From Chloroflexota bacterium (lineage in GTDB: Bacteria; Chloroflexota; Chloroflexia; QHBQ01; JADMIH01), in assembly GCA_015478675.1 (NCBI GenBank), contig JADMIH010000002.1, forward strand, positions 14,233 through 78,232: a stretch of DNA of 64,000 nt. The letters are read 5' to 3'. The notes under the pieces are model-generated. The model did not search any database. It was given only the letters and a program-made list of their open reading frames with translations, and was not told the origin of the DNA. Below are positions 17,792-47,636 of the stretch, one piece after another. Positions within the stretch are counted from its first letter, which is position 1, and each line of letters opens with the position of its first letter. The position numbers and the translations under genes were made by a program.

Positions 17792-18386
17792 TTGTCCAAC
17801 ACAGATGCATGGAGCTTCCTAATGCATAATCACGAAAGGTATTGTGAAAAGGGATGAACAAGTTTGGTAGAATAGGGCATGAAGCCACCCTTGTTTGTGC
17901 GGACACTGACAGACGAAGAACAGCAGACACTGCTCGCTGGCCTGCGCTCCCTGAAGTCCGACGCCTTTACGCTGCGGCGATGCCAAATACTACTCGCCTC
18001 CTCAAGAGGCCAGCTCCCTTCCGAGATAGCAGCCAACCTGGGTTGCGCCACCCAGACTGTGCGCAATGCCATCAACGATTTCCACACAGAAGGGTTGGAT
18101 TGCCTCAAACCTGGCTCATCACGTCCCAAGACAGTACAACCCATCTTCGACCCAGCCAAAGCCGAACAGTTACGAGCTATCTTGCACCAAAGTCCTCGCA
18201 CTTTCGACAAACCTACTTCAGTATGGACGCTCAGTTTAGCTGCCGAGGTATGCTTGGAGCAGGGAGTAACCGAGCGATTGGTCAGCATCGAGCGGATACG
18301 AGTAGCTTTGAAGCGACTAGGTGTAGGCTGGAAGCGAGCCAAACACTGGATTACTTCCCCAGACCCCGAATACGAGCGCAAAAAAA

Positions 18387-20188: not shown

Positions 20189-20836
20189 AAAAAAAGCGGC
20201 GCGACCTGTTGATTGAGCGAGCCACCAAGCGTGCTCAAGAAGGTTGGGTGGTCGGCTACGGTGACGAAGTATGGTGGAGCAGGTTGGCGCAGCCTCGAAT
20301 GCACGCTTGGTGTGATGAAGGGCAGCCCTTGCGCTTGCAGGAGTTTGGGGTTGATAAAGAAGACCCGGATCCAAAGGCGTTGTGTTGCTATGGGTTGTTG
20401 CGTGCTGACACAAATAGGGTATGGTTGCGCTTTGTTGATGGACGACCAGTCAGCCATGTGACCACAGCCTACTTGGAATGGGTGTGTGAGCGCCTGGATG
20501 CCGAAGGCAAGCGAGTGTTGGTGCTCATATGGGACAACGCCACTTGGCACATCAGTCGTGAAGTAATGAGTTGGATAAGCCAACACAACCATTTGGTGCT
20601 TGCTGGCTGGCGAGAAGGCGCAGAGGGCAAGAGTGGTGTTCAGATAATCCCCTGCTTTTTGCCAATCAAAAGTCCCTGGCTCAACCCGATTGAGCCGCGC
20701 TGGGTGCATGGCAAGCGAGCAGTGGCCGAGCCTGCCAGCAAGCTGACCGCACAGCAGTTGGCTGACCGTGTTTGTGACTATTTTGGTTCTGTCCACCATG
20801 AGCATCTCAAACAATACCTTTCGTGATTATGCACTA

Positions 20837-25091: not shown

Positions 25092-25628
25092 CTACTTGCC
25101 GTACACAGGATATCCGTGAGGATCCGTCATATTCATCCGCAGCCATTCTGCCCACCCACCAGCCAGCACCCGCACATCCGGATATTCCATCTTCTTCAAC
25201 AGGAGTGCTGCACGGGCACTCATTTGCTCTGTCGGTCACGCGCAATACAGCACGATGAGAGCGTCAGAGCGCGAGGGAGCCACCACCGACGTAATACGTG
25301 CTTCCAGTTCGGCCTCGGGAATGGATAGCGCCCCGCGTATGTGGCCCTCCGAGTAGAGTGCCTGGGAGCGGACATCGATCAAATACAGGTTGCCCTCGCT
25401 CCCCTGCTGCCCAGGGCCACGGGTAGCCATCTGAAGAGTGCCAAACCCAGCCGCTCTGTCGTACATCAGCTTGAAATCGCTGATTTTTATCCGCGGCACG
25501 GATGCGACACTGGCATCATCCCCATTGGATATCTCGCTATACACGTGATAGCCCCAGGCGGCTAAGAGGACGAGCAAAGCACCGGCCATAATGCTTACCA
25601 ATCGCTTCCGGTCTGTGGTAACTACCAT
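25092..25628 (-). CDS. Membrane-anchored rhodanese with in-frame UGA at the catalytic site (candidate selenoprotein)
   Basis: An N-terminal transmembrane anchor (LVSIMAGALLVLLAAWGYHVY) precedes a rhodanese domain: LYLIDVRSQALYSEGHIRGALSIPEAEL, then LIVLYCA, then UGA (25238-25236), then PTEQMSARAALLLKK ... VRVLAGGWAEWL. Stopping at UGA would remove the active-site loop. Reading through gives 178 residues and a complete domain, with the UGA at residue 131. That is exactly where YCxCP-type relatives carry the catalytic cysteine. The gene starts one base after the end of the 1156-residue T4SS gene. Its function would be sulfur or redox transfer outside the membrane. Alternatively it is a nonsense-mutated pseudogene. 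Confidence 0.65.
25203..25238 (-). promoter_or_regulatory. UGA codon plus SECIS-like hairpin
   Basis: Fourteen nucleotides after the UGA, the transcript can form a 6-bp stem GAGUGC/GCACUC closing a 7-nt loop CCGUGCA (arms at 25221-25216 and 25208-25203). The position (loop beginning 20 nt after UGA) lies in the range known for bacterial SECIS elements. The loop contains a G-U, but the sequence does not by itself prove SelB recognition. Confidence 0.4.
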
Positions 25629-25629
25629 C

Positions 25630-28600
25630 TCAGGGAAGGACCTCCTCTGTTGCTTCTGTTACCGATGGAGCGGCAGGAGAAGGAATAGCTGGCGAAGCGG
25701 GCACAACCAACGAGGACGTGGGCGACCACGAGGCCCGCAGCTCATTAGCTATGCTGCTATCTACGTGTGCGGTAAAGATGACTTTCCTCGCACCGGGAGC
25801 TCCTGTCACGAGCAGAGCATCACCCTCTTCTATACGCCTCAGCACCCCCAATAGACGATCTGCGTTTAGCGTCCGGCTCATGAGGTCGGGGTGGGAAACG
25901 TCGCGACGAGTGGGAGGAACCCGCGTATCCACCCCTGCTGCCTTCTCGACCACCTTGTGCATCCCATCGCGCAGTATGCTCAACTCCTGGTCCACCAGAT
26001 GGAGGGTGACATCGGGCGCGTCCATGTCCGCCACCGGAGCGGGCCCGATGATCAGGTTGCCAAACGTCTCGCAGGCCCTGGCACGGTACGCACGCAGGTG
26101 GCGTAGCGCGCTGACCGTGGCTGCGACAGCAATACCTGACCCCTCATGTCCCAGCTCCTGCAAATTCGATGGATCCGAAAGGGGGCTGCCGGAGCCAAAC
26201 CACGCCCCCGCTCCATGCAGCACGAGCAGCACCGGGTCGGGCTCGCCGTAGCCGGTATAGCCATTTGGAGTTGCCTCCATGGCCGATATGCCCTGAGCCT
26301 TTCTTTGTTGCGAAACGGCCCACAATGACCAGAGCAGATAAAGACCATAGCGCTTCCGCGCCAGGTCATCTTCGCTGTAGGGGGGCATTGCCGTCCGGTA
26401 TGCTCCGCTCAGGTTTACTCTCAGCATCCTGGCAGCGCCTACAGCACCTCCGTGCAGCAGGTCACCCAGCGAGACATGTGGGCGACTCAGCATGCGCACC
26501 AGGGGGGAGTGGCCCACTACGCGCTTGAGCTGGCCGCGCAAGGCCGCACCATATAAGTAGAGATCATGCGGGTCTAGGCGCTCGACCTCCGCAGCCCGCT
26601 CCAGAGCTTCTTTGGCCGCCTGGAGCGCGCGCTCGCCCGCAGTGCCGGCCCTCTGCATGATACCGACCCACTCCGGATCGCTCCATGCTGCACGCTCGCG
26701 CCGCAGCAGGTTGAGCAGCGTTTCAGATTGCTCGAGTACCAGCATGAGCGCAGGCAGATCGGGACACGAAGGTAAAGATGACAACGAGGGTGAGAAAGAG
26801 GGTGACGAGGGTGCCATCCGAGATGCAGAGCCTCGAGAGCCGGTCATCGCTGCAAGTTCTCCATCGTGAGGAGATGACGAGATACCACGGGAAGCCAGAA
26901 TCAACCTTGCACGATGATGTCGCAGCAAGAGTACGGTGAGCCAGGCTTCCATTATCGCAATGCCCGGCCCGTTATCTTCTCCGTTATCTTCTATACGGAC
27001 CGCATCGATGCCCACGATCCCTGCGTCCATGCCGGTCACATTCACTGCCTGCAGGAAACGCATCTGAGCCGCTAGCCCGATCTGTAGAGCAAGCGATGCC
27101 GCTTCCGCTTCTCCTTGCAGTGGAGGGAGCCAGGGCGAAGCCGCTACGTACAGCATGTTTGGATGCACACTTCCGGCCGGGTTGTCCATGTCTATTTGGG
27201 CCACCCATTTTGCCGCCAGGGCAGGGTCGCTGACGCGAAGCATGTTTGGAGAGAGGGGATCGGCGCCGGCTGCGCTGGCGGCCCTACCAGCACCGGCATA
27301 ACCGGCAGGAACGATGGAAGTCACCCCTGCTCTGTGACCTTTCAGATCGCCCGACATGATCTGAGATCCCTTACGAGCCGACGAGGGTGGCTCATCCGGA
27401 GGAGGGCCACCGTCCACCGCAACAACGGTTACTCCCATATCGAGTGCCTGTGAAACCAACGCTCCCGCGACATCCCTGCGCCATGCATCGCTGCCACCGG
27501 CCACCAGTAGATGCTCGCCGAGCATAGGGTGCAATCGCAAGCGACTATGACCCCTTGGGCAGTAATCATTGCCGATACGTAAGTCATCTGCGGCGGAGCG
27601 GGCAGGGAAGCCGCTAGCGGAACTGGCAGCATAGCCAGCAGCCGAAACAGTCGAGGCTGGCGGAGTGCTCTGTGCCTTACGAAGTGCGGGCACCCCTACA
27701 GCTCGCCCATCGCAGGTGGCGCTACCGAGTACCAGGATCTGAGAAGGAAGAGGCGGTAGCACATAAGAAGGTGGTAAGGGCACCTCGCCGGCCTCTATGG
27801 AGTCGAGCGATGTGTAGGATCCGGTTGTGGCCGGGAAGAATAAGTCGCCGGTGCCAACCACGGTGCCGGCGACATCGGTCGTAGCGATAGGCACACTTCC
27901 ATTGGCTTCCGTAACCAGTAACGGCACAGCCGGTGGCGGCATTCGCCTCTGCCTTGCGCGACCGGCGTTTATGTCTCCGGGCCACCAGTCCCACAGCGGA
28001 TAATTCGCTGCCAGCGCGTTTACAAGGCGCCCTGGTAGGCCTGCATACACCGGTTCGCGGTATATGATGCCATTTCTCTCGCGAAGTCCTGGGTTAAGCT
28101 GTGTGCCGCTATCGATACCTTCCGGTTGAGGATTCTGCGAAGGCTGCGACGACAGAGAGGGCAGAGGCCACCGCCATGTCAATCCCCATAACAACGGCTT
28201 CAGGAATGGCAGTGGTGATTTCTGTGATAGCTCCTGGGGTGATTGCCGTGCTCTACGACCCGGCCTTAGAGATGTGAGCGATGGCCGCCGTATGGAGAGC
28301 TGCCTCATATCACACTGGGCCACTAAGACAGCCGACCAGCCATGTGCCCAAAGCTTCAACCGTACCTCAACTTCTCTTATACCGGTCGAATTGTCTGAGC
28401 CTCCAAGCCCTGCCGCCAACGCCGCTGCCAGTTCGCCCAGGTGGATGCCACAGGCGAGCGGATCAGCCAGACTCCCCCTACCTGCCGACGCTGCATCCCA
28501 CCTCCAGGCACGTACAGCCCAGCCGGGGATCGTAGGCTTGAGTGGGCCCGGCACGGCACACTTCATTGCCCACACGCCGGGCAATAGACCTGAAAGCATG

Positions 28601-29100
28601 CCCTCCAGGGCTTTCCGGGCCGAGACAGGCGCCACGAGAAACAAGGAAATCTTAGCGGAGACCATGTCTGAATTCTCAGACTCAGACTGCGTTGCAACCT
28701 GCCCACCTTTAGCAGGAGCTTGAGCTGCCACGGCTGCGGGTGCGCCCATAACTCCCATGTCAGCACCTGAGGGGGGTTTCCCGGGTTCGAAGCGCCATAT
28801 CAGGTCCACATGGCCTGCGTTGCGAGCGACGGCATTGAGCATACGGGTTACGGCGCCGCTGTCCGGCTGCTGATCGGCGTGATAGAGCACTCTGTATGCT
28901 ACCATCTCCCCTCTTGCGGTGGTCCATAACCGGACACCTACCCAGGTGAGCAGTCCGATGCTTCCAAGGATAGCCGCCATACCTGGAATTGATGCTTGTA
29001 GAGGCACGACCCCGGCTCCCGCCAGAATAACCAGCATAACTCCAAACGCCAGACAACATAAGGCACATAGCGCGACTCGCACACAGGTTGATCGTTCCAA
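25630..29100 (-). CDS. Large T4SS-associated membrane protein, VirD4-like without Walker residues
   Basis: This is a 1156-residue protein. Two N-terminal membrane segments (about residues 8-60) are followed by a very long cytoplasmic part. The C-terminal half resembles the TraD/VirD4/HerA coupling fold. It has a strand plus loop HLLVAGGSDAWRRD where a Walker A would be, LRGQLKRVVGHSPLVRMLSRPHVSLGDLLHGG ... LRVNLSG, and VLLVLHGAGAWFGSGSPLSD where Walker B would be. The GKS/T and the DE are absent, so ATP hydrolysis is unlikely. It sits downstream of VirB4 in the same operon and may be a structural or substrate-receptor variant of a coupling protein. The start codon has no strong ribosome site. 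Confidence 0.6.
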   Translation of the reverse strand: MERSTCVRVALCALCCLAFGVMLVILAGAGVVPLQASIPGMAAILGSIGLLTWVGVRLWTTARGEMVAYRVLYHADQQPDSGAVTRMLNAVARNAGHVDLIWRFEPGKPPSGADMGVMGAPAAVAAQAPAKGGQVATQSESENSDMVSAKISLFLVAPVSARKALEGMLSGLLPGVWAMKCAVPGPLKPTIPGWAVRAWRWDAASAGRGSLADPLACGIHLGELAAALAAGLGGSDNSTGIREVEVRLKLWAHGWSAVLVAQCDMRQLSIRRPSLTSLRPGRRARQSPQELSQKSPLPFLKPLLWGLTWRWPLPSLSSQPSQNPQPEGIDSGTQLNPGLRERNGIIYREPVYAGLPGRLVNALAANYPLWDWWPGDINAGRARQRRMPPPAVPLLVTEANGSVPIATTDVAGTVVGTGDLFFPATTGSYTSLDSIEAGEVPLPPSYVLPPLPSQILVLGSATCDGRAVGVPALRKAQSTPPASTVSAAGYAASSASGFPARSAADDLRIGNDYCPRGHSRLRLHPMLGEHLLVAGGSDAWRRDVAGALVSQALDMGVTVVAVDGGPPPDEPPSSARKGSQIMSGDLKGHRAGVTSIVPAGYAGAGRAASAAGADPLSPNMLRVSDPALAAKWVAQIDMDNPAGSVHPNMLYVAASPWLPPLQGEAEAASLALQIGLAAQMRFLQAVNVTGMDAGIVGIDAVRIEDNGEDNGPGIAIMEAWLTVLLLRHHRARLILASRGISSSPHDGELAAMTGSRGSASRMAPSSPSFSPSLSSLPSCPDLPALMLVLEQSETLLNLLRRERAAWSDPEWVGIMQRAGTAGERALQAAKEALERAAEVERLDPHDLYLYGAALRGQLKRVVGHSPLVRMLSRPHVSLGDLLHGGAVGAARMLRVNLSGAYRTAMPPYSEDDLARKRYGLYLLWSLWAVSQQRKAQGISAMEATPNGYTGYGEPDPVLLVLHGAGAWFGSGSPLSDPSNLQELGHEGSGIAVAATVSALRHLRAYRARACETFGNLIIGPAPVADMDAPDVTLHLVDQELSILRDGMHKVVEKAAGVDTRVPPTRRDVSHPDLMSRTLNADRLLGVLRRIEEGDALLVTGAPGARKVIFTAHVDSSIANELRASWSPTSSLVVPASPAIPSPAAPSVTEATEEVLP

Positions 29101-29639: not shown

Positions 29640-32111
29640 CTAACTTCCGGAGAAGAGAGCCATCTCTGCCCGGCTGGAATGCATGTGCATGTGGAAAATG
29701 TCATCTCCCAGCAGCGTGACGCACTCGCCGCGCTGGCTGGTGCCCATCAAGAAAGCATGGTACTCGGTCAGTTTGGGGTAGAGATCACGCGCAATCTTGG
29801 TGGCTGTGGCCGTCTGGCGATAAAGAGTGATGAGCGGAGTGTTCTCAATGATGGCGCGACCGGTGAACGTTTCTGAGAAGGTGAAGAGGTTCTGCTCCGC
29901 CATCCAGATCGCAGCTCGATAGGTGCGCGCGGTCTTCACCAGGAGCATCGCCTGCTCGGCAAGCATTGGCTCCTGCGCCATGTACCGAAACTCGTCTATG
30001 AAGACTATCATCGGCTGCTCGCGGTGGCGATTGCGGATGCGTCGCTGCACCGCCGCCAGCACCTGCGAGTAGAGGAGAGGACGGAAGGTGTCGTTCACCT
30101 GCGAGAAATCGTAAGCCACTCCAGGCGATGTCAGGAGGAGGTTGAGGCTCGTGCCCTCTCTGGGGTTGAACACCTCCCCGTACACGCCATCTACGTACAG
30201 CCCGGCGATCTCGTCCGCCAGGGCACGTCCGTAGTCACCCTTGAGCCTGAGCCGAGAGCACAACTGCTCCAGGCGCGGCGTCTCATCGGGCCTGATCGTC
30301 TGGGGGTCAATACCCGTATAGAGGTCGCGCAGAGCGGAGCCGAGGGCCGCAAGTTCTGCATTCGTGAATACCCGCCGTCCGGCAACCATTCCGCTGCCTT
30401 GCCCCTGGCCCGGCTGCCCTGTGAGCGCCTGCCAGCCGCCTCCCTGCGAGGCAGAAGCTGCAGCGCCTCCGGCTCCCGCAGCCGAAGAAAGCAACACGGC
30501 CAGAGCACGCTGCACATGTGTTACCTGGTCCGTGAGGGTAGTCTCCACCACGTCCAGCACGTTGAGAGAGGTGTGTGCAAAGTCCACGCGGTTGTGCGAC
30601 CCGCCTTCGCCCATCGCCTGCATTAGCCGCCTCGAATGACCCATCGGCTCCAGCACTACAACCTGCGTGCCCCGAAGGGCCTCCCTGTAAAGGAGGAGGT
30701 TTGCACCGTAGGTCTTGCCTGAGCCGGTTTCGCCCACGATCACGTGATGGTAGGCTGAGGCTCCTGAAGCGCCGGAGTTGCCAAATATCCCGGATGCGCC
30801 GCCTTCCCCGTGGATACCTCCCCTGCGTGGCCCATCTATTCCACTGCCGCCCACTCCTGCGCCTGCCACACCGCCCACACTACCGGCGCCACTCTGCCGG
30901 GTCCACCCATCGTAGAACACAGGGTAGCCTCCATCGGCGTCTATGCCCCACAGGATGCCGCGCGTGTCGTTGCGGCGGCGCAGGCCGAAGGGCACCAGCA
31001 CCGACGCTCCTTCCGATACGGCTGTGCGCTGGGTCAGCTTCAGGTTGATGCGGCCCGTGGGCACGGGTGTGAAGAGCTTGAGAGCCTCAAGCTGGTTGCC
31101 ACTCTCAACGCGGAACCGCAGCTTGCTCGCCAGCACCCGCTCGGCAAGCAGCACGTTCTCGTGTAAGATGCTACGCGTCCTGCCTTTGATCAGAATGGCC
31201 ACCACCACGCGGTGCAAACGCTGCCCGGCGTCTACCGCTTTCATAGCATAGTCGCAGTCCACCCAGGCCGCCTCTGATCTGGTATCGCGGCCCATACGCC
31301 CGGTCGTGTTGAGTTGAGCCTCAAGGGCGTTATACGCGTTCATGAGGGTTATGTGCGCGCGGTCGGGAGGGTAAGTATAGATGTCCACGGCCAGGCCGAC
31401 CGGGAACTGCAGTTGCAGCAGATCGTGTATCGTGTACAGGTCCCAGGCCCCTCTGAGGTCCCAGCTCGTCAGCACGCACATGAACGGCTCGCCAGGGGTG
31501 AGCGGTGCCAGGTGGTCGCGCTCCTCAATGTACTGTCCCCTGAAGAACGGCTCCGTAGTGTCCACAGCAACTACCCGCGTCATGAACGCGCCGCTGGCAA
31601 GACCCTGTACGGTGTTGTCAGGTATCTCAGGCGGCAGCCAGGCCTGGAGGTAATATTTGATGCCATGCAGGTCGGTGGACGCGCGCAGTTCCTCCATGAA
31701 CCGCCGGTACTGCTTCAGACCCTCTCTACGCCACTCCTCGGCTGTGGAAAGCACCATCTCGTGCGCCGAGTCGACGGCCCCTTGCAGCGAATATGGCTCG
31801 GAGAGGGCAAGGATGCGCATGGGCAGGTCGATGGCAGAGAAGAACTCCGCGAAGCGGAACTGCACCGCAGCCAGCTCGTCTCCCTGGAACATGCCCAGGT
31901 GGAAAGGTTTTACCTCGAATATGGAGACGCCTTCTGTGATGTCGTACCTGGAGGCGCTACGGTCTTGCCTCTTCTCCTTGCCGCGCTGCCCGCTACCCAT
32001 GCGGATCGCCGCCGTAGAAGAAGGAGAAACGGCATCATCAGTGCCGTCAGATGCCGGTCGTGGGGAGTCCTTGCTCCTCCCGGGAACTATGTTTCGGATG
32101 CCCTTAGCCAT
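29640..32111 (-). CDS. virB4: VirB4-family T4SS ATPase
   Basis: This 823-residue cytoplasmic ATPase has Walker A VIVGETGSGKTYGANLLL (near residues 456-466), Walker B PMIVFIDEFRYM and motif regions typical of VirB4/TrbE (DLYTGIDPQTIRPDETPRLEQLCSRL, VAYDFSQVNDTFRPLLYSQVL). The N-terminal 380 residues are the VirB4 assembly domain. Glycine- and serine-rich segments (GSGIDGPRRGGIHGEGGASGIFGNSGASG) form an unusual insertion just before the P-loop. It powers pilus assembly and substrate transfer. It lies nine bases after the PrgI-like gene and is the clearest T4SS marker in the window. Confidence 0.95.
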   Translation of the reverse strand: MAKGIRNIVPGRSKDSPRPASDGTDDAVSPSSTAAIRMGSGQRGKEKRQDRSASRYDITEGVSIFEVKPFHLGMFQGDELAAVQFRFAEFFSAIDLPMRILALSEPYSLQGAVDSAHEMVLSTAEEWRREGLKQYRRFMEELRASTDLHGIKYYLQAWLPPEIPDNTVQGLASGAFMTRVVAVDTTEPFFRGQYIEERDHLAPLTPGEPFMCVLTSWDLRGAWDLYTIHDLLQLQFPVGLAVDIYTYPPDRAHITLMNAYNALEAQLNTTGRMGRDTRSEAAWVDCDYAMKAVDAGQRLHRVVVAILIKGRTRSILHENVLLAERVLASKLRFRVESGNQLEALKLFTPVPTGRINLKLTQRTAVSEGASVLVPFGLRRRNDTRGILWGIDADGGYPVFYDGWTRQSGAGSVGGVAGAGVGGSGIDGPRRGGIHGEGGASGIFGNSGASGASAYHHVIVGETGSGKTYGANLLLYREALRGTQVVVLEPMGHSRRLMQAMGEGGSHNRVDFAHTSLNVLDVVETTLTDQVTHVQRALAVLLSSAAGAGGAAASASQGGGWQALTGQPGQGQGSGMVAGRRVFTNAELAALGSALRDLYTGIDPQTIRPDETPRLEQLCSRLRLKGDYGRALADEIAGLYVDGVYGEVFNPREGTSLNLLLTSPGVAYDFSQVNDTFRPLLYSQVLAAVQRRIRNRHREQPMIVFIDEFRYMAQEPMLAEQAMLLVKTARTYRAAIWMAEQNLFTFSETFTGRAIIENTPLITLYRQTATATKIARDLYPKLTEYHAFLMGTSQRGECVTLLGDDIFHMHMHSSRAEMALFSGS

Positions 32112-32119
32112 GTGTCAGC

Positions 32120-32731
32120 TCACAGGTTCCAATCACCGTAATCTGAGTCGAGCCGGTCGTCCCCTACAGGAGGCTGATGCAAGTGGCCGTTGCTCGACGC
32201 CGATCTCGGCTTGATAGAAGCATCAGTACCAACACCATGTGCCTGAGAGGGTTGAGCGCCAGGAACGGACGCCCACGCCCTCTCTTCCGCAGGTGGTACG
32301 AACAGGCCGTCGAAAAGGTCGGCGGACGAGCCGGAGCCGGACCCTCTATGTACCAGCACCGGCACTGGCTTGCCGTCTCGGGTCGCCACCAGCATGAAAG
32401 GCTCATGCTTGACCGCGCGTGCCCTGTAGTAGAAAGCGGCGTCTATCGTGAAGTCACCCAACCCTATTTTCAGGTAGCGCCGCAGGATGAAGGTGGCGTA
32501 GGAGAGTGCCCATCTGTAGATCGGGTGGCCTTTGACCTTCCAGGTTGTCATCACGCCCAGCAGAACGCCGAAGAGAATACCGAGCAGCTTGAGAGGGGGC
32601 GCCACCATCTCTATCAGCGAATTGCCGATGAAGGCCCCTAAGAAGCCTCCGCCCAGATTGGCATAGGTGAATATCCAGAAACCCTTCTGGTCGGCCTGTC
32701 CCAGGAACTCCTCCAGTTGACGAACCCCCAT
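32120..32731 (-). CDS. PrgI-like T4SS inner-membrane protein
   Basis: This 203-residue protein has two closely spaced membrane segments (about residues 20-65: ANLGGGFLGAFIGNSLIEMVAPPLKLLGILFGVLLGVMTTW). A basic cytoplasmic part follows, with the motif HPIYRWALSYATFILRRYLK. This is the pattern of PrgI-family proteins, the Gram-positive counterparts of VirB3 that pair with VirB4. The C-terminal 70 residues are polar and low in complexity. It directly precedes virB4. Confidence 0.82.
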   Translation of the reverse strand: MGVRQLEEFLGQADQKGFWIFTYANLGGGFLGAFIGNSLIEMVAPPLKLLGILFGVLLGVMTTWKVKGHPIYRWALSYATFILRRYLKIGLGDFTIDAAFYYRARAVKHEPFMLVATRDGKPVPVLVHRGSGSGSSADLFDGLFVPPAEERAWASVPGAQPSQAHGVGTDASIKPRSASSNGHLHQPPVGDDRLDSDYGDWNL

Positions 32732-32824: not shown

Positions 32825-33196
32825 CTACGCGCAGCCGCTGCCAGTACCCGTGGCGCCCAGAGTGGTGAGGATGAAGGTGGCTATCAGGGGCAGTATGGCT
32901 ATGACGATGAGGCCGACGATTACACTCCGGATGGCTCCCTGGAACTGGTTGGAAAACTCGGGGGCGAGACCTCTCAGTATGAGGGCAAACCCTATGGCAA
33001 TTGCTGCCGCGATTACGAGTATGCTGGTCCAGCCCTTTATCGCGTCGAGCATATTGCAGATCGCCTGCTCAGGTCCTACTTGTAGGAGGACACCCGCCAG
33101 CCAGGTACTTCCGAGGTGCAACGCCCTGCCGGGCAACCACCCTCCTGAAGCATCTCCCAACTGGAAAACTAGCGCCGGTATGAAAAATAGGTGCAT
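32825..33196 (-). CDS. VirB2/TrbC-like pilin
   Basis: This 123-residue protein has an N-terminal hydrophobic leader and two transmembrane helices (about residues 55-75 and 90-115: ILVIAAAIAIGFALILRGL; SVIVGLIVIAILPLIATFILTTLG) with a short polar loop. That is the usual layout of conjugative pilins. A perfect AAAGGAGG precedes ATG 33196. It is the first gene after the promoter with paired heptamers at 33319-33353, and is followed by PrgI and VirB4 genes. Confidence 0.78.
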   Translation of the reverse strand: MHLFFIPALVFQLGDASGGWLPGRALHLGSTWLAGVLLQVGPEQAICNMLDAIKGWTSILVIAAAIAIGFALILRGLAPEFSNQFQGAIRSVIVGLIVIAILPLIATFILTTLGATGTGSGCA

Positions 33197-38021: not shown

Positions 38022-39404
38022 TCAGGGGATGACAGCGGGCAGTGCGGGAGGAAGTACTCGCACCTCCAGATAGAGTCCTCCATCTTCCGAAGCGGACCAC
38101 ACGTCGGTTCGTTGCCTCGAAGCAGATGCCATCTCGAAAGGGTCTACCAGGTCCGACCAGTTGAGATCCGGGAGTGACACCCGTACGCGCCCCGCCCAGA
38201 CCCACTCCAGACGAGCGTGCCCATTAGCGTTGGTACTCACGGTCTTCTGCACCGAGTTGGTGCGCACGTTCAGTAGCGCCACTCGCAGATCGTGCAAGCC
38301 CTCGCCTGGGTCGGGCGCGCCGTTCTGGTTTTGATCCAGGTAAGCGACCACATCGACGCTGGCAGGTAGACCCGGCGACCCCGGCTTGGGAGATGGTGAT
38401 GGCGAAGGAGTTGGAGTGAAGGTGAGCGTTGGAGTAGCAGGTAGGGGTGTAGGAGGTGGCACGCGGGTATTAGTCGGAACAGGTGCCGGTGGAGTTGGAC
38501 GAGGAGTGGGTTGCTGTTTTGGGACTGGTACCTGGACAGGCTGCATCGGCCCGGAGCCCTGTCCATAGGGCCCAGCTGAATTTGAAGGTTGTACCGGCTG
38601 AACAGGTACAGATGCCGAAGGCGGCCCGAGATCTAGCACTGCGAAGGTGTAGGTGGCTCCTCGGGGGTTCTTGAGGGCGTAACGATAGTTGAATACCTCA
38701 GCTGCCATCTGACCGTCTGTGTCGACGCAGGCGTGGGCAGCGGCGAAGTATCCACCCTCTGCGGGCCCCATGCTCGGGTTGTATTCGGCCAGCAGTTTAC
38801 GCCCCTCCTTCACAGGCGGGTACCACCAGATGCGGATGGCGTGCTGCACCTTCCATTTCCCCGTGAGCTGTTCGGCATTGCCATTGATGTCGCCGGTGAA
38901 GGCTCGGTAGCAGCGTCCCCTGGAGACATTCCATACATACCAATCCCGATCCTCACCAGGGGTGGGGTTCGGCGCGGGCTGAGTGCGAGGCAGCAGGTTC
39001 AGGCTGCGGTAAAGGGTGCCCGTCACAACCGGTGCGGGGCCAAGCAGGTCATCCGTGCCGTCGTTAGGCTCCATCTGGTCAGGCCAGGAACCATCACCCG
39101 CTCCCGCATAGATTACCGGCATACCTCCAAACTCTGTCGACGGCGTCAGTATCGGACGCGCGATGGGTGAAGGGGTAGGAGAGGCATCGCCGGCGTACGT
39201 TGTCCCGGGAGCCGCCAGAAACAGGGCGCTCAAGAACATACCCACAATTAGCAACGCTGGTATGCTCGCGGCACAGTGGCTCGTTGGCCGCCCCTTCGTA
39301 TCTGCATCGGAATTGCGCATGGCGCTCACATCGCTAGAGATGATTGATTGCGTTGCTTCTGTATGCTTGATCACGGCAGGCGACAAATCTCTAGTTGATC
39401 TCAT
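38022..39404 (-). CDS. Secreted protein with Thr/Pro linker and SdrD-like B domain
   Basis: This 460-residue protein has an N-terminal signal segment (ASIPALLIVGMFLSALFLAAPGTTYAG) and then a domain with EDRDWYVWNVSRGRCYRAFTG. A Thr/Pro/Ser-rich linker (TPAPVPTNTRVPPPTPLP...) follows, then an SdrD B-like/Cna-like domain (SVDVVAYLDQNQNGAPDPGEGLHDLRVALLNVR) with a calcium-type DQNQNGAPDPGE loop. It is predicted to be exported and exposed on the cell surface. Its start overlaps the VirB6-like gene by 14 bases; the first plausible ATG may also be nearer residue 29. It is likely a surface or adhesin component of the T4SS. Confidence 0.75.
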   Translation of the reverse strand: MRSTRDLSPAVIKHTEATQSIISSDVSAMRNSDADTKGRPTSHCAASIPALLIVGMFLSALFLAAPGTTYAGDASPTPSPIARPILTPSTEFGGMPVIYAGAGDGSWPDQMEPNDGTDDLLGPAPVVTGTLYRSLNLLPRTQPAPNPTPGEDRDWYVWNVSRGRCYRAFTGDINGNAEQLTGKWKVQHAIRIWWYPPVKEGRKLLAEYNPSMGPAEGGYFAAAHACVDTDGQMAAEVFNYRYALKNPRGATYTFAVLDLGPPSASVPVQPVQPSNSAGPYGQGSGPMQPVQVPVPKQQPTPRPTPPAPVPTNTRVPPPTPLPATPTLTFTPTPSPSPSPKPGSPGLPASVDVVAYLDQNQNGAPDPGEGLHDLRVALLNVRTNSVQKTVSTNANGHARLEWVWAGRVRVSLPDLNWSDLVDPFEMASASRQRTDVWSASEDGGLYLEVRVLPPALPAVIP

Positions 39405-42400
39405 CAGCTTCTCCTGGCTCTTCGCCGTACTCTACCCCCTCAGCAAGCCATGTGGACTTTGGATGGGCCTTCAAATCCTGCCCGGCAGTAGTTGCGCCAT
39501 CTACCCTGTTCTGACTTACAGAGCTGTTCGGCTTACTCGTTGGCCCTCTTGTTGGTCTCGGCGGACGGGGCTTTGGTTTACTCTGCTGGCCAAGCTTGAC
39601 CTGTGGTGCGAGGTCAACCGCATTACCAGATCTCCCTGGTAGCTCATGTCCAGACACGTACGCACGAGCGTCTGCTGGCGTATCTTCTAAGGGGGCCTCT
39701 AGGGTAGCAGGCGTAGCTGTAAACATGGCTGGAGATACAGCAGGCTCAGGAGCAGGTACAGCACCGACGGTGAATGGATGGGCCGAGTAGGTCTCAATAG
39801 GCACGGAGTAAAGCTCGTCGCTTATGGTCATGCCTTCGGCGAGCAACGTGCCCAGCGTCTCCTCAGCGCTCTCCCGTGACTTGTGGCCAGGCGTACCGGG
39901 AGGAGAGAGCCGAGATGCCTGTCGTAGCGTGTTAGTTCGCACCCTGTCCAGAGGCTGAAGCATGTCAGGTGGCACCCCCGCTGCACGCCACTGATTGTGT
40001 CGCTTTGTTTCATCCTTCTCCGGGATGCCTGCTATAACCCCTGCCATGTCGTGGGCGCTCGTCGCCACGTCCAGAGTGGTGGACACATCTGTCGCTGACA
40101 GACCTACATAGCGTGCGATCTCGACGAAGCGCTTGATGGGCGCAGTGCTGGTACGGAGTGATGGCGTACCCAGCTCTTCTGATACGGCCTGCACAGGGTC
40201 AGAAGCATCCAACAGGCTGGCCTCCACTATTGCTCCTTTGACCTGCGGCCAGGGCAGAGCGCGCTTCAGCCCCAACCCCGCAGATAGCATGAGCGCCATA
40301 TCACCGGCGGGTATACCTTGATCGGCTTGCCCAGTGGTATCCAGGGAGCCAGGCGGCTGAATCTGTAGAGGGCCTCCCCGTGAGGAGACCAGGGACAGGA
40401 CGGATGCTGCGCCTGGCGAACTCAGGTCCAGATAGCCGTTAGGCCCCACGAAGCTGTCGAGCACAGCCTGGGGGTCCTCAATACCCCCCATCCCACCTGC
40501 GCTCTCAGCTACCTCTCCGGTCGCCTCAAGAACCCGCAACATGCCATCGGGCGAAATTACGCCCTCCTGAAGCATGGTTGCGAAGCGCTGCCGATCATCG
40601 ACAGACAGGTGGCTCAACTTACCCTGCAGAGCATTCGCATTCAAAGGCACTCCGCGAGCTACCCGGTCTGCCAGTTCCCGCACATCGGACAACACCTGGT
40701 GTCGCGCCTGGCCCTCGGCACCGGACCACATCGTCAGACCAGATGCTCGCCCGACTTTGTTTGCCGATAATCCAGTAGGAGCTTCGCCGTCGGCAGGTTC
40801 CCAGGCCACCAGAAAGCCTGGGCGTTTCCTGGACTTCTGCACATGTTTGCCTTTCTGTAAGAGGCCAAGAATGTCTACGGTCGCCGGTATCAGATCGTAA
40901 TGGCCGAGTCTGTGGTCATCCTCCAAGCGAGCGCCACTGTAGATCAACAGATAGCCATCTATCAGTGCGATCGCTCTGTTCTCGACCAGCACCGCATCAT
41001 CAGCCGCAGCACGTACACTCAGGTCATTCGCCTTGAGCTTGAGCATGGTGGTTACGTAGGGCTCACTTTCTGAGTCTGTCCCCTCTCCAGTTGGCGAACT
41101 CCTCGTGTTGCTAATACCTCTGACAGAGACTGGCTGTATGCCGTTGTTGGCAACATTGCTTGATGGTGCAGATTGCCCGACACTACTTCCGCGAGCTTGT
41201 GGCTCCTGCCGGCTACTGGTTGATGCACTGGTGGCCGCGCTTGGGTTGGCGGCAGCACCGTTGTTGGTGGCGCTATTCGGGCCAGTAGCCTTTGAAGAAG
41301 TAGGCCCCCCGGAACGGACGGTCTCGTCGCTACTGCCATCAGCGTTGCCAGCGGATGTATTTGCGATGGCTGTGGAGGCACTTCCAGCTTGGTTGGGATT
41401 ATTGCCGTCGCCCGCACGCAGGGATTTCCAGGGCCTTGAGTAACCTCGCCACGCCAGGCGCCCCATACCTGCTGTGCGCATATCACTGCGATACTTCTGC
41501 CTGCTCTCCTCCAGGGAGGTCCACTCACGGACCTTTCTCACCGCCCACTCTCTCCTCTGGGGGGAGACATTCTTCTGCTCCATCAGGATGGCAGCAGCTT
41601 CGTCAGCATCCCGGTCCAAGCGCAGAGCGCGAGCAGTTTCCAGCTGGTAAGCATGTTCGTGCGCCATCTGGTGGTAGCTTTCAACTGCGCTGTAGCCGCG
41701 CTGTAACCCCGCCAGTGGAGAGCGACCCACCACCGCCCCTGCTCTCACCCTGGCGGCTTGGAGGGCAGCACTGCCCACTGCGCTCAAGCCACCGCCTCTG
41801 AGCCCGCCCTGGCGATGGAGCAGGGTCGCAGCTCCCACCAGGGCACCACCTCCCGTGGCTACGGCCGCGCCCGCCAGCGCCGCCATACCAGCAACTCGGC
41901 CTGCGGCAGCAAAGGGGTCTGTCTGCCTGACGCCCACGCCTGTGGCGGAACCCACAGCCGAACCGATGACGTTGAGCGCCCCGGTTACTGTGCTTGCAGC
42001 CATGCCCACGAACTGGAACGAGAGGAGCATGGTGAGGGCAGATATGGCTATGAAGACCAGGGCGGTTCCTCTATCGGCGAAGATGATGAGCATCTGCACC
42101 AGGAACGCCAGCATGGTGGCCACCACGAAAGTTCGCACCACCAGGAAGAGATAGGCGCGCAGCACGGAGGCAGCTATGATTTCAGTCAGTGAGAAGAAAG
42201 CGAAGGGTATAGCGACGGGCAGCGAGATGAAGAGCACCATAGCGGCGATCGCAAAGAGCAAGAATATGACGGCTTCGATGATCGAGAAGAAGGAGGGGAG
42301 TGTGCCTTCGAGGAGACGCATGACCCCATCTTTGGCGTTTCTGACCGATGCGGTGCGCTCTTCCTCGTTGCCGTCTCGCCAGGTGAAGTACCTCTCATAC

Positions 42401-43074
42401 AGCGCCCGCGGGTAGCCACCGGTGTTCTGAGCGTCGGCCCGAGCGCCGGTGATGTCCCCTTCCTCAGCCCCTACGAAGGCAGCAGCGGCATCCAGGCCGT
42501 TGCAACCCGCCGGGCAATTGGAGCCGACCGCATTGCCGAACAGATGCGGCACGTACCCAGGCGTCTGGCCCGGTAGCCAGAAGTCACCGACAGTGTTTGG
42601 CACGACCTGGTTGTTATATCTATTGACCTCATTCTGGTAGTTGATCGTTGAGGCTATGAGATGAGCTTGTTCCTGCAACCCGAGCCTGGTGCTTTCCAGC
42701 CCCGCTACCATCCCCGGCCCTGCGGAGAAAATGATGACGGCTATGAAAAACCAGAGGATGACCTTGTTGAACTCGACTGCCTGGAACCTGCCGATCAAGG
42801 GACGAGCGATAAGGGTAAAGGCCAGTATGGTGAAGGCAAGCATGATACCCAGGTAGACCAGTTGCTTGAGTAGTTCGTTGCCCTGCAGCAACTGGGTCAT
42901 GAGGATGCCCAGCAGGTTGTCTTGCCCACCGCCGCCGACGAGCAGCACCCGGAACCAGTGAAGCAGACCGGCTATCATGAGCATCATTCGGTCGAGAGTC
43001 CACAGGATCCCACCGATCATATTCAGGATGTTGAATATGATGCCGTCGCGTATAGCGCCCAGATCAGGCCACAT
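39391..43074 (-). CDS. VirB6/TrbL-like polytopic T4SS protein with long C-terminal tail
   Basis: This is a 1227-residue protein. The N-terminal 370 residues have at least six membrane segments, among them QLVYLGIMLAFTILAFTLIARPL, KVILWFFIAVIIFSAGPGM and FFSIIEAVIFLLFAIAAMVLFISLPVAI. That is the VirB6/TrbL channel arrangement. The remaining 850 residues are hydrophilic, Ala/Gly/Ser-rich, predicted disordered, and have no recognised enzymatic domain. Extended VirB6 proteins with long soluble tails occur in other T4SS. It follows the Cna-like gene (ATG 43074 with GGAGGG upstream) and precedes the secreted B-repeat gene, consistent with a core T4SS operon. Confidence 0.82.
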   Translation of the reverse strand: MWPDLGAIRDGIIFNILNMIGGILWTLDRMMLMIAGLLHWFRVLLVGGGGQDNLLGILMTQLLQGNELLKQLVYLGIMLAFTILAFTLIARPLIGRFQAVEFNKVILWFFIAVIIFSAGPGMVAGLESTRLGLQEQAHLIASTINYQNEVNRYNNQVVPNTVGDFWLPGQTPGYVPHLFGNAVGSNCPAGCNGLDAAAAFVGAEEGDITGARADAQNTGGYPRALYERYFTWRDGNEEERTASVRNAKDGVMRLLEGTLPSFFSIIEAVIFLLFAIAAMVLFISLPVAIPFAFFSLTEIIAASVLRAYLFLVVRTFVVATMLAFLVQMLIIFADRGTALVFIAISALTMLLSFQFVGMAASTVTGALNVIGSAVGSATGVGVRQTDPFAAAGRVAGMAALAGAAVATGGGALVGAATLLHRQGGLRGGGLSAVGSAALQAARVRAGAVVGRSPLAGLQRGYSAVESYHQMAHEHAYQLETARALRLDRDADEAAAILMEQKNVSPQRREWAVRKVREWTSLEESRQKYRSDMRTAGMGRLAWRGYSRPWKSLRAGDGNNPNQAGSASTAIANTSAGNADGSSDETVRSGGPTSSKATGPNSATNNGAAANPSAATSASTSSRQEPQARGSSVGQSAPSSNVANNGIQPVSVRGISNTRSSPTGEGTDSESEPYVTTMLKLKANDLSVRAAADDAVLVENRAIALIDGYLLIYSGARLEDDHRLGHYDLIPATVDILGLLQKGKHVQKSRKRPGFLVAWEPADGEAPTGLSANKVGRASGLTMWSGAEGQARHQVLSDVRELADRVARGVPLNANALQGKLSHLSVDDRQRFATMLQEGVISPDGMLRVLEATGEVAESAGGMGGIEDPQAVLDSFVGPNGYLDLSSPGAASVLSLVSSRGGPLQIQPPGSLDTTGQADQGIPAGDMALMLSAGLGLKRALPWPQVKGAIVEASLLDASDPVQAVSEELGTPSLRTSTAPIKRFVEIARYVGLSATDVSTTLDVATSAHDMAGVIAGIPEKDETKRHNQWRAAGVPPDMLQPLDRVRTNTLRQASRLSPPGTPGHKSRESAEETLGTLLAEGMTISDELYSVPIETYSAHPFTVGAVPAPEPAVSPAMFTATPATLEAPLEDTPADARAYVSGHELPGRSGNAVDLAPQVKLGQQSKPKPRPPRPTRGPTSKPNSSVSQNRVDGATTAGQDLKAHPKSTWLAEGVEYGEEPGEADEIN

Positions 43075-44232: not shown

Positions 44233-45666
44233 TTACCGGCTGCCGCCATTGAGGCCGAGCAGGTTGAAGGGGTCAACGAAGCCCTGGCCGGGGCGCTGCA
44301 CCTGAAAGTGGAGGTGCGGGCCGGTCGAGCAGCCGGTCGAGCCCATGAGGCCGACGATCTGCCCAGGCACGACGTGGTCGCCTACCTCCACTCGCTCCGA
44401 GCCAACGACGGTGTGCCCGTACTTGATGGTGTACGACCCTGACTGGATCACGATCACCCAGCCCAGGTTCGTGCGAGGCTCCTCAGCGCCTGGGAAGGTG
44501 CAATGCACTCCCTGAGACACGCCCACGTATGTAACCGTGCCTTCCGTCACGGCGTACAGCGGCGAGCCTCTGCGGTCGGCGAAGTCCACGCCGGCGTGGA
44601 ACCAGGGGCGGCCAGGTGGGCAGTCGTATCCTGAGATTTCGGGGAAGGCAGTGCAGCCGAAGTCCTGGCTGATATACGTGCCTCGGCGCACGGGCCAGCC
44701 CTGGAAGCTGCCATCTATTACCGGCGTTCGCCTGACCAGAGGCTCTTGCCAGACGGCTCCGCCCTGATCTCGACTGGTGACCGGACCGGATGTGTTGTCC
44801 CGGCAATGCGGATCGGCGGCTGGTCTGAACCAGACTATGTTCTCCGCGCTGCCGGCGTCATAGCGCAAGTCAGGATTACTCAGGTCGGGCGCAAACCCCA
44901 CAGCTAGCCCTCTTCCCGAAGGAGCTTCCAGTGACATGTGGAGCACGCGGGTCTGGCCGCCGTGCAAGATGGCCCAGTCGTCCTGCCACACTGCTCCGGC
45001 AGCCTCTCCGGCGCGTTTTGTATACCCCCACCTGCCCGACAGCACCTCGCCCGACTGAGTGGCGACTTCACGCATTATGGTGCGGAGCGGCCAGGTGACC
45101 GTGAGCGTCTGACCGCCTTCATTGGCTACTTCGAACGTCCACACATGGGCCACCATTCCCTGAGGTCCGGGAGTGGGGAGAGGTGCGGAGGTGGTGTAGC
45201 CTGTGAGGGTCATCCGCAGAGGGCCCATGCGCACGTTTTGGTCCATATAGAACGTCGTGGTGGTGTGAGAGTCCGGCATCATCTGCAGGCCGTAAGGTGT
45301 GGCCGTAGGGAGTGGTGTTGTGCATTCCAGCACCGGCTCCGGAGTGGGAGTGCCCGGACCAACGGTCGGCCCTGGATACGGTTCTAGCCAGCACTGTGTC
45401 GGCACGGGCGAAGGAGTAGGGCAGTTCCAGTAGGCGTTGTATAGGCCCATCTCGGTGGAGTCGGGCAGGTCAGAACCGGCGCGACACGCCAGCAGCACGG
45501 CAGATGCGAAGCAAAGAAACGCCGTGAGGTAAGCTGCGCGCACACTTTTATACTCACGCACCGCGGCAAAGTGCTTGCGCTCGCTGCTGTCTGAATTTGA
45601 CGATACTTCGCCGGGTGTGTTTGACCTCGTCATACTCTTCGCCCTATGAGTGTTCATAGTTGTCAT
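44233..45666 (-). CDS. Lipoprotein M23-family metallopeptidase (LytM type)
   Basis: Open frame extends to 45765, but ATG 45666 lies just after the stop of the upstream lipoprotein gene and is preferred (477 residues). A lipobox LLAC ends the signal segment (AYLTAFLCFASAVLLAC). The C-terminal LytM domain has HAGVDF and HLHF zinc motifs, and the fold signature VTEGTVTYVG...GWVIVIQSGSYTIKYGH...GDHVVPGQIVGLMGSTG. Peptidoglycan hydrolases of this kind open the wall for T4SS assembly (VirB1-like role). Between the lipobox and the catalytic domain lies a Thr/Pro-rich segment and a beta-rich domain of unknown kind. Confidence 0.87.
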   Translation of the reverse strand: MTTMNTHRAKSMTRSNTPGEVSSNSDSSERKHFAAVREYKSVRAAYLTAFLCFASAVLLACRAGSDLPDSTEMGLYNAYWNCPTPSPVPTQCWLEPYPGPTVGPGTPTPEPVLECTTPLPTATPYGLQMMPDSHTTTTFYMDQNVRMGPLRMTLTGYTTSAPLPTPGPQGMVAHVWTFEVANEGGQTLTVTWPLRTIMREVATQSGEVLSGRWGYTKRAGEAAGAVWQDDWAILHGGQTRVLHMSLEAPSGRGLAVGFAPDLSNPDLRYDAGSAENIVWFRPAADPHCRDNTSGPVTSRDQGGAVWQEPLVRRTPVIDGSFQGWPVRRGTYISQDFGCTAFPEISGYDCPPGRPWFHAGVDFADRRGSPLYAVTEGTVTYVGVSQGVHCTFPGAEEPRTNLGWVIVIQSGSYTIKYGHTVVGSERVEVGDHVVPGQIVGLMGSTGCSTGPHLHFQVQRPGQGFVDPFNLLGLNGGSR

Positions 45667-45671
45667 GGTTG

Positions 45672-47636
45672 TTATGGTTGGTTGTTGGCCGAAATCAGCG
45701 TGTACGGCCATATGGCACCGAAGAAGGCTTCTTTGCTTGCCCCTTTCTCCATCCAGATCAGCCATGCAGCTCCTGTGCTGTCCAGCGCCCCAGCGCCCTG
45801 CAACTGGTTCATAGCTTCGTACTGAGTAGGTGGGAAGGCTCGGAGGGGCGTGGTTTGCCCGAACTGTGGCCCTACTGCGCCATCCCAGGCGCTGCCGGGC
45901 GCATCGGGTAGAGAGTAGGCATAGGCGGCGAAGTATTGTCTTATGCCGCCAACAGCCGGCGGAGCAGTGCCGTACCTGTAAACCACGAATACCCTGCTGC
46001 GTTCTGGCACCCAGAATGGCTGGGGCAGATGCACCTTCGGCGCAATTGTCGTGGCATCGGGTTGCAATCCTGGAGCGAGGACACCCTGTTCAGTGCCCTC
46101 GCTGTACCCTTCTTCCGGGGTAGTGGTTGGTTCTGGTTCTCCAGGGACCGGTGGGAAGTAGGCGAAGGTGTCCTCGTCTGTCCAGTGAGGCCCGGCGGGT
46201 GTGTCCGCGTCCGGGGTATAAACAAAGCAGATGCGCCCCGTGGAATAGATGCTCCAGAAGGCGTACACAAATGCACGACCCTGATACCGAAACGCCAGGG
46301 CGCGCAGCGACGACGGCCAATAGTCGAGTATACCCAGCCTGGCGTTCATGGCGTCGCTGTTCGCTAACTCCACTGGCTGATGCCATCCCTGCCATTGCCC
46401 ATCATCCCCGGTATCGCTGTAAGTGGCGTACACATTGCTGCCATCATCGAAGATTAGAAAAGCCCGGTAACCCCCACCCTGCGAGCCTGGCAGTTGCAGG
46501 AACGCGAAGTCGCTCTCGAACTGGCGTCCGGACGTCATCCTTGGAGGGGATACATTGGTCCATTCTCCTTGCGGCGAGCGGCGGAAAACGCGCACGAACG
46601 AGTCCGGCACCTCCGGCCTATCTGCGTTCCCGCCTGTCCACGCAGCCAGCAGCGCACCGTCGGGTGCGGCTTTCAAGCGCACGTTGTTGCACCAGCTCGG
46701 GCTTGCATCACCTATGCGGAGGGGCTCTGACCATCCTCCATTCCCATCTCCGGAGCGCCTGTAGAGCGCATCAGTGAGACTGGTGCCGGCGCGCCTGTCG
46801 CAGTAGAGTGCGTGTACATCTCCGTTGGGCGTGATGGCAACAGCCGAATCCAGATAGGTGGTCTTGAACCCGATCTTCGATTCCAGGACATTCACCGATC
46901 GGGCATCGGAAAGGGTGTGGGTCTTCGGATCCATCCGTCGCAGGTAGACTCTGTGCTCGGCGTCCGTTGCCTGGTTGGTGTTGTCTTGCGACCAGATAAA
47001 GGAAGGCGCGCCCGTTACAGGATCTATCGCGGGCTGGCCGACGCCGGCGTTACCGGACATCGACGCGAGAGCCCGCCCTTCTGAAGTGCCACTGCCTCCC
47101 GAGGGCATCGGCGTGTTGATCGGGAAGGTTGGGAAGACGGGCGGGGGAATCGTGGGCCGCGGGGTGAGGGTGGGCTGGCCGGGAGCGGCAGTACACGTTA
47201 TGGCTGGTGGTGGCCAGGCCGGCGGCTCGGTGGGCTGCCTCGGAACCAGGGTGGGATACGAACCACCGGAAGGTCGCGTTGGAACAGGAGTGTTGGTGGG
47301 GCGGGGAGGTATCCAGGTGCCGGTGGGCGTTGCGGTGCCTGTGGGCACGGTGTATTGCTGCGAGCCGTAGGGAAAGCAGTTGCACCTACACGCAGTGGCT
47401 GTGGCGATAGCTGCTTGCTCGCTCATCATCCCGCCCGTGCAGCCAGCCAGAATAGCCTGTAAGGCAAGTAATCCAAGGATCATTGGTAACCAAGTCACGG
47501 AGAACGCCGGCATACGGCGGGATGGCCTGCCTCCCTGGGAAGGCCGAGGTACGACACGATCAACAGAATGGTCGGCGAAATCGGCCTGGCACGTTATTTT
47601 ATCTACTGTATCTGGTGTGTCGGGTGTATCTGCCAT
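45672..47636 (-). CDS. Lipoprotein with predicted beta-propeller (sialidase-like repeats)
   Basis: This is a 654-residue protein. A lipobox ILAGC follows a hydrophobic stretch (TWLPMILGLLALQAILAG); ATG 47636 gives a long cytoplasmic-type N-terminus, so an inner ATG is possible. A Thr/Pro linker (TPTGTWIPPRPTNTPVPTRPS...) precedes a domain of about 430 residues with repeated propeller blades, including PAIDPVTGAPSFIWSQDNTN, DSAVAITPNGDVHALYCDRR, VRLKAAPDGALLAAWTG and DFAFLQLPGSQGGGYRAFLIFDDGSNVYATYSD. Blades contain Asp-box-like turns. It is surface-exposed; it could bind carbohydrate or protein. It is the first gene of the T4SS operon. Confidence 0.75.
   Translation of the reverse strand: MADTPDTPDTVDKITCQADFADHSVDRVVPRPSQGGRPSRRMPAFSVTWLPMILGLLALQAILAGCTGGMMSEQAAIATATACRCNCFPYGSQQYTVPTGTATPTGTWIPPRPTNTPVPTRPSGGSYPTLVPRQPTEPPAWPPPAITCTAAPGQPTLTPRPTIPPPVFPTFPINTPMPSGGSGTSEGRALASMSGNAGVGQPAIDPVTGAPSFIWSQDNTNQATDAEHRVYLRRMDPKTHTLSDARSVNVLESKIGFKTTYLDSAVAITPNGDVHALYCDRRAGTSLTDALYRRSGDGNGGWSEPLRIGDASPSWCNNVRLKAAPDGALLAAWTGGNADRPEVPDSFVRVFRRSPQGEWTNVSPPRMTSGRQFESDFAFLQLPGSQGGGYRAFLIFDDGSNVYATYSDTGDDGQWQGWHQPVELANSDAMNARLGILDYWPSSLRALAFRYQGRAFVYAFWSIYSTGRICFVYTPDADTPAGPHWTDEDTFAYFPPVPGEPEPTTTPEEGYSEGTEQGVLAPGLQPDATTIAPKVHLPQPFWVPERSRVFVVYRYGTAPPAVGGIRQYFAAYAYSLPDAPGSAWDGAVGPQFGQTTPLRAFPPTQYEAMNQLQGAGALDSTGAAWLIWMEKGASKEAFFGAIWPYTLISANNQP

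Follow-up and report, generated by a model that had tools for sequence, protein, structure and literature searches.

A predicted selenocysteine-containing rhodanese at the end of a type IV secretion-like gene cluster in a Chloroflexota bacterium

Relation to described rhodanese selenoproteins

Single-domain rhodaneses such as PspE and GlpE are cysteine enzymes without a CxU insert. Rhodanese selenoproteins with a CxU motif (U, selenocysteine) have been described, and excerpts of two reviews list them as "Rhodanese-like domain-containing protein form 3, CxU" (PMC13188914) and "COG0607 form 2, CxU" (PMC9312934). Another rhodanese-like selenoprotein appears in the list of the Global Ocean Sampling paper, as excerpted (PMC2398784), and a count from 2006, likewise as excerpted, gives three selenoproteins in Chloroflexi (PMC1794560). 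Here we describe a gene in a 64-kb stretch of DNA from a Chloroflexota bacterium (contig JADMIH010000002.1; the whole stretch is called the window below), whose predicted product is a divergent member of this already described CxU rhodanese type. The gene is interrupted by an in-frame UGA codon, and it lies beside a cluster resembling a type IV secretion system (T4SS).

The best NCBIfam model for the window protein is NF041203 (rhodanese_LYCAU; E 5.7e-18), which likewise describes a single rhodanese domain with CxU. The window protein has the CxU of this model (C129-A130-U131), but it scores 64.8 bits where the cut-off is 115 and so falls outside the equivalog. Unlike the NF041203 type, it has a membrane anchor, an insert of ~20 residues, and a T4SS cluster alongside. 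NF041203 matches 26 of the 35 members of our alignment at E 1e-10, the other nine being proteins that end at the UGA (P0001–P0009, below); nine Chloroflexota relatives scored singly reach 53.7–92.4 bits, with L085 the best at 92.4. The CxU rhodaneses that we found in Chloroflexota (35 loci) share with the window protein the UGA site, the selenocysteine insertion sequence (SECIS), the rhodanese core and mostly an N-terminal anchor, whereas their motif is mostly YCTU rather than YCAU, and no T4SS connection was noted for them, their wider surroundings not having been studied. TsoB, a rhodanese/DsbD fusion-like protein (NF045694), is also a rhodanese selenoprotein, but it is a fusion with two selenocysteines, and the window protein scores 23 bits against its cut-off of 805. 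Literature queries pairing selenoproteins with Chloroflexota, T4SS or conjugation, and mobile genetic elements returned excerpts in which no T4SS-linked selenoprotein was found among the matches listed.

The in-frame UGA codon and its conservation

The gene starts with ATG at 25628 on the minus strand, and codon 131, directly after LIVLYCA, is UGA (25238–25236). The same frame continues past the UGA as PTEQMSARAALLLKK... and ends with TAG at 25092, the fuller read-through segment being PTEQMSARAALLLKKMEYPDVRVLAGGWAEWLRMNMTDPHGYPVYGK; sequence and translation thus bear out the earlier note made on this DNA, which had pointed to the interrupted frame. Translated through the UGA, the protein has a predicted N-terminal helix (residues 6–42) serving as membrane anchor, followed by one rhodanese domain, with the insert located before the first core strand in the alignment. 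The Pfam rhodanese family PF00581 matches residues 79–163 of this read-through protein, across the UGA (62 bits, cut-off 22.2, E 8.2e-17), and the predicted protein accordingly belongs to the rhodanese fold.

An open frame alone is weak evidence, as at least 47 open codons follow 378 of the 1862 TGA triplets in the window. The signal above chance comes from the PF00581 match across the UGA, from the end point shared among relatives, and from the match of the window to a SECIS model built without it. On these grounds, it is very likely that 25092–25628 is a functional selenoprotein gene, with UGA131 a conserved recoding site accompanied by a covarying SECIS hairpin; this estimate concerns the selenoprotein reading, separately from the chemistry of the protein and any role in the T4SS. 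The apparent stop is almost certainly read as selenocysteine (Sec), and the product is then a membrane-anchored rhodanese of full length.

Seventeen proteins were recovered in a protein search. Nine of them (P0001–P0009), the closest, share 43–92% identity with the window protein over the common part, are 130–163 amino acids in length, and every one terminates exactly at LIVLYCA; the remaining eight belong to other rhodaneses, whose sequence continues beyond the site. We then considered the Chloroflexota sample, made up of 400 genomes from the phylum to which G002 belongs (its record is titled Chloroflexi). A rhodanese search gave matches in at least 211 of these genomes, and the best matches mostly had one internal TGA. 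Of 32 loci (L083–L114), 19 encode a short rhodanese in which UGA occupies the homologous site. Among 38 candidate loci tested, 33 fit the motif, and in two (L203 and L206) the site is present within a variant motif; the latter two fall outside the motif pattern and were excluded from the alignment, serving as held-out SECIS tests. Three candidate TGA loci without the site (L199, L204, and L208, in genomes G083 and G173) are excluded from all counts. In total, there are at least 35 UGA loci in at least 29 Chloroflexota genomes, with 26–39% identity to the window protein (25 aligned loci). Many of their products start, as read by eye, with a hydrophobic helix or a lipobox-like sequence. Downstream of the UGA, residues are conserved as protein in 26 read-through sequences (SARAA, GG, and W).

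At the site itself, homologues L147, L149, and L150 have U, and L144, from the order of G036, has cysteine (YCACPNE), the replacement that the earlier note had suggested seeking. The gene might instead be an ordinary rhodanese gene hit by a nonsense mutation or a sequencing error, as open frames after TGA are not rare in the window. However, the end point shared by nine relatives at 43–92% identity, the same-site UGA in 29 genomes, and the covarying hairpin make this explanation scarcely credible, and a strain-specific nonsense mutation, named beforehand as a refuting outcome, is excluded by the relatives that share the site.

Two variations on the site were seen. L105 (G091:C95) has UGA at both motif positions (YUTUP), a candidate double-Sec active site. 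In L147, L149, L150, and L207, the UGA rhodanese lies near the end of frames of 306–586 codons and is possibly fused to another domain.

Other collections yielded no closer relatives. The rhodanese alignment, searched against a genome-contig collection, gave no close relative of the window protein among the 80 loci retained out of 97. In these 80 and two viral-contig loci, none of the 69 (of 82) that could be aligned at the site has UGA, with 52 having glycine, 12 another residue or a gap, and five cysteine, several of the last resting on gapped alignments; the other 13 aligned too poorly to tell. Neither the 82 genomes of the order to which G036 belongs (E limit 1e-5, best match 6e-14) nor the 47 genomes of the class of G341 (E limit 1e-12) yielded a closer relative. 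Among plasmid records, 19 had a rhodanese match, in every case with less than 60% identity and with less than 80% of the query covered. The part after the UGA gave no match as a query too short to be informative, and a viral structure library gave nothing informative.

The SECIS hairpin and the selenocysteine machinery

A hairpin lies 14 nucleotides past the UGA, with arms GAGTGC (25221–25216) and GCACTC (25208–25203) enclosing the seven-nucleotide loop CCGTGCA (25215–25209). The earlier note had drawn this stem and loop at the same distance, and covariation together with the model match now identifies it as a SECIS. The 50 nucleotides counted from the UGA have a minimum free energy of -13.2 kcal/mol. 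A gapless alignment of the 45 nucleotides from the UGA comprises 34 sequences, in which stem columns 18–24 pair with 30–36 around the loop CGUGC in 90.2% of cells. Six of the seven stem pairs show compensatory changes, and sliding the partner columns lowers pairing to 34–55%. None of 500 shuffles reached any of the five observed covariation measures; kinship can inflate such shuffle controls, though rarely for the two measures that count pairs or types. The window hairpin itself carries a double change, U21–A33 in place of C–G.

A covariance model (R1) was trained on 33 relatives with the window excluded. Run against the 64-kb window, R1 scores the hairpin at 36.2 bits (E 6e-10) and the next-best place at 9.2 bits. 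A sequence-only model (R2) gives the hairpin 20.6 bits, so that pairing contributes about 16 bits. R1 scores the two held-out members at 44.3 and 39.8 bits, and its highest score elsewhere in 97 sources (1.44 Mb) is 20.1 bits, at a place without the stem. Codon usage was compared in 27 nonredundant members including the window. Codons +6 to +10 show almost no variation (dominant fraction 0.88–1.00), as compared with dominant-codon fractions of 0.31–0.81 in other columns having one residue in at least 80% of members; Arg+8 is CGT in 26 of the 27, with CGT accounting for 16% of arginine codons in these genes. Codon-preserving shuffles gave a mean z of -1.10 for the 27 members versus -0.30 for 81 control stretches.

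The UGA may alternatively be a conserved real stop, yielding a 130-amino acid membrane protein whose rhodanese domain lacks its second half, or both forms may be made. Database gene calls do terminate there, and at Sec UGA codons some degree of termination is generally to be expected. Protein-level conservation downstream of the UGA in the 26 read-through sequences and the presence of a SECIS, neither of which a stop requires, make a real stop very unlikely.

Selenocysteine decoding of UGA131 is also consistent with the gene content of the 29 genomes that carry UGA loci. In these carriers, selB was found in 27 with E-values no higher than 4.8e-88 (all but G199 and G002), selD above cut-off in 28 (not G324), and tRNA-Sec at 60 bits or more in 27 (not G324 or G143). 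All three are present in 25 of the 29, and the other four have at least one. By comparison, tRNA-Sec reached 60 bits in one of 10 selB-poor non-carriers and exceeded the gathering score of 47 in three. Four genomes that host relatives of the window's T4SS (G036, G104, G112, and G376) have selB, selD, and tRNA-Sec. The hosts of the cysteine-type (G430) and glutamine-type (G415) homologues have selB and selD, with tRNA-Sec at 45.4 and 45.0 bits, below the gathering score. Of the selD matches above cut-off, 33 of 36 contain one in-frame TGA (G002, G057, G114, and others), and SelD in such genomes looks like a selenoprotein itself from its predicted reading frame.

Decoding of the UGA as tryptophan or another amino acid, through a changed code or a suppressor, would equally leave the frame open. 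However, many ORFs (open reading frames) in the window, among them the one immediately upstream, use TGA as their stop, and the covarying hairpin adjacent to the UGA throughout the family, the Sec machinery in the hosts, and the cysteine in a homologue also stand against such decoding, which is even less probable than a real stop.

Several observations weigh against the selenoprotein reading. The survey of the Sec machinery extends to genomes of relatives only (at least 29 carriers), and in the window itself no tRNA was found and nothing matched Rfam at the gathering score. As selB is above cut-off in 306 of the 400 sample genomes, carriers are only modestly enriched for it (one-sided Fisher p 0.017, where 29 is a minimum count of carriers and the comparison group may include further ones). 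Cysteine at the site is no marker of lost Sec decoding, since G430 has selB and selD, and the L143 homologue has glutamine there. That the stop of P0001–P0009 is UGA is inferred from the end point of the proteins. The window hairpin lacks the innermost pair of the family (C24 faces A30), its own codon-preserving z is only -1.07, and five members are near or above zero; folding energy by itself is a poor discriminator. Taken with these points, the conserved UGA, the cysteine homologue, the covarying hairpin, and the Sec machinery in relatives' genomes support the proposal of the earlier note that a Sec-decoded, membrane-anchored rhodanese is encoded beside a T4SS cluster.

Active site and the T4SS-like cluster

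The earlier note had placed the UGA exactly at the catalytic cysteine. This is not established, as Cys129, two residues earlier, and not Sec131, occupies the canonical catalytic position in a profile alignment with solved rhodaneses. In classical thiosulfate sulfurtransferases the active loop, CxxGxR, begins at the catalytic cysteine; the loop of the window protein is C-A-U-P-T-E and does not have this pattern. From established biology, SelB with Sec-tRNA would bind the hairpin and insert selenocysteine. The 178-amino acid product would be anchored in the membrane by its N-terminal helix, with the rhodanese domain outside the cytoplasm, a topology suggested by basic residues ahead of the helix and by the lipobox-like starts of relatives. 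Cys129 and Sec131 would form a CxU pair, in which one acts as the nucleophile (forming a persulfide or selenenylsulfide) and the other resolves. Because its loop lacks CxxGxR, the protein may act as a thiol/persulfide redox enzyme of the envelope and not as a thiosulfate sulfurtransferase of the classical kind.

Table 1. Coordinates of the predicted selenoprotein gene, its recoding elements, and genes of the T4SS-like cluster in the window.
Feature	Position	Strand	Basis
Predicted selenoprotein gene, 178 amino acids, Sec as residue 131	25092..25628	minus	Sequence, translation, Pfam, alignment, helix prediction
In-frame UGA, predicted to be read as Sec131, second member of the C-A-U motif	25236..25238	minus	Same-site UGA in 35 Chloroflexota loci
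SECIS hairpin, 6 bp (family: 7), loop with CGUGC	25203..25221	minus	Folding, alignment, covariation
45-nucleotide region matched by SECIS covariance model R1, 36.2 bits	25194..25238	minus	Model built without the window; sequence-only R2 20.6 bits
1156-amino acid ORF, ending 1 nucleotide before the rhodanese start	25630..29100	minus	No Pfam or NCBIfam match
VirB4-like T4SS ATPase	29640..32111	minus	PF12846 27.7 bits (cut-off 27.5); NF045971 E 4.9e-19, below cut-off
203-amino acid protein	32120..32731	minus	Relatives beside virB4 in 3/10 related T4SS regions
Possible T4SS pilin	32825..33196	minus	PF18895 E 0.00099, below cut-off
1227-amino acid cluster protein	39391..43074	minus	Relatives in 6/10 related T4SS regions
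M23 peptidase of the cluster	44233..45765	minus	PF01551 E 4.4e-20

The rhodanese gene lies at the 3' end of the T4SS-like cluster (Table 1) and is probably co-expressed with it, since it starts 1 nucleotide after the preceding ORF. The earlier note had spoken of a conjugation machine. A VirB4-type T4SS ATPase is indeed present (its TIGR00929 match, too, is below cut-off), but conjugation is unproven: no relaxase or coupling-protein Pfam family was found among the 37 window ORFs scanned, and the window ends may cut the element. VirB4 relatives occur in 15 of the 400 Chloroflexota genomes and in only two plasmid records, both from Herpetosiphon; none was found in viral contigs. Together with the rhodanese family, these VirB4 relatives point to Chloroflexota as the origin of the window. 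All ten related T4SS regions have the VirB4 match and six the 1227-amino acid protein; a 338-amino acid protein and the 203-amino acid protein occur in three, one of which is the Herpetosiphon aurantiacus plasmid CP000877 (99,204 bases). This plasmid and L133, L134, and L135 have a gene order akin to that of the window's cluster.

These ten regions, two of them cut by contig ends, contain no rhodanese match and no UGA motif. The VirB4 relative P0024 (83%) and the rhodanese relative P0007 are both on contigs of 43,358 bases, probably one and the same contig, in which case the linkage of rhodanese and T4SS is conserved there. For P0003, P0004, and P0006, no such contig match was found among the 15 VirB4 relatives listed, and the 1156-amino acid neighbour gave no match in the genome-contig collection.

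Other genes of the window include one for an IS605-type OrfB (TnpB-like) protein (36877–38013), within the T4SS cluster on the opposite strand. A DnaA-family protein (22007–23701) has the usual three Pfam domains and an extremely long branch, and adjoins a BTAD-domain protein; transposase pieces (DDE_3 and a weak Mutator-like match; 17854–20826) lie upstream of the dnaA gene. An APH-family phosphotransferase gene is located at 2089–3042 (PF01636, 155 bits).

As a tentative and rather doubtful proposal, the Sec redox enzyme might be a working accessory of a Chloroflexota T4SS or conjugation apparatus, handling extracytoplasmic disulfides or persulfides and making transfer selenium-dependent. 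Given this T4SS neighbourhood, the idea of a component of secretion or transfer that depends on selenium can be put to the test. With the nine close relatives stored as products that end at the UGA, and the site present in at least 29 Chloroflexota genomes, this branch of CxU rhodaneses is easily overlooked, and the SECIS model provides a direct route to finding such genes.
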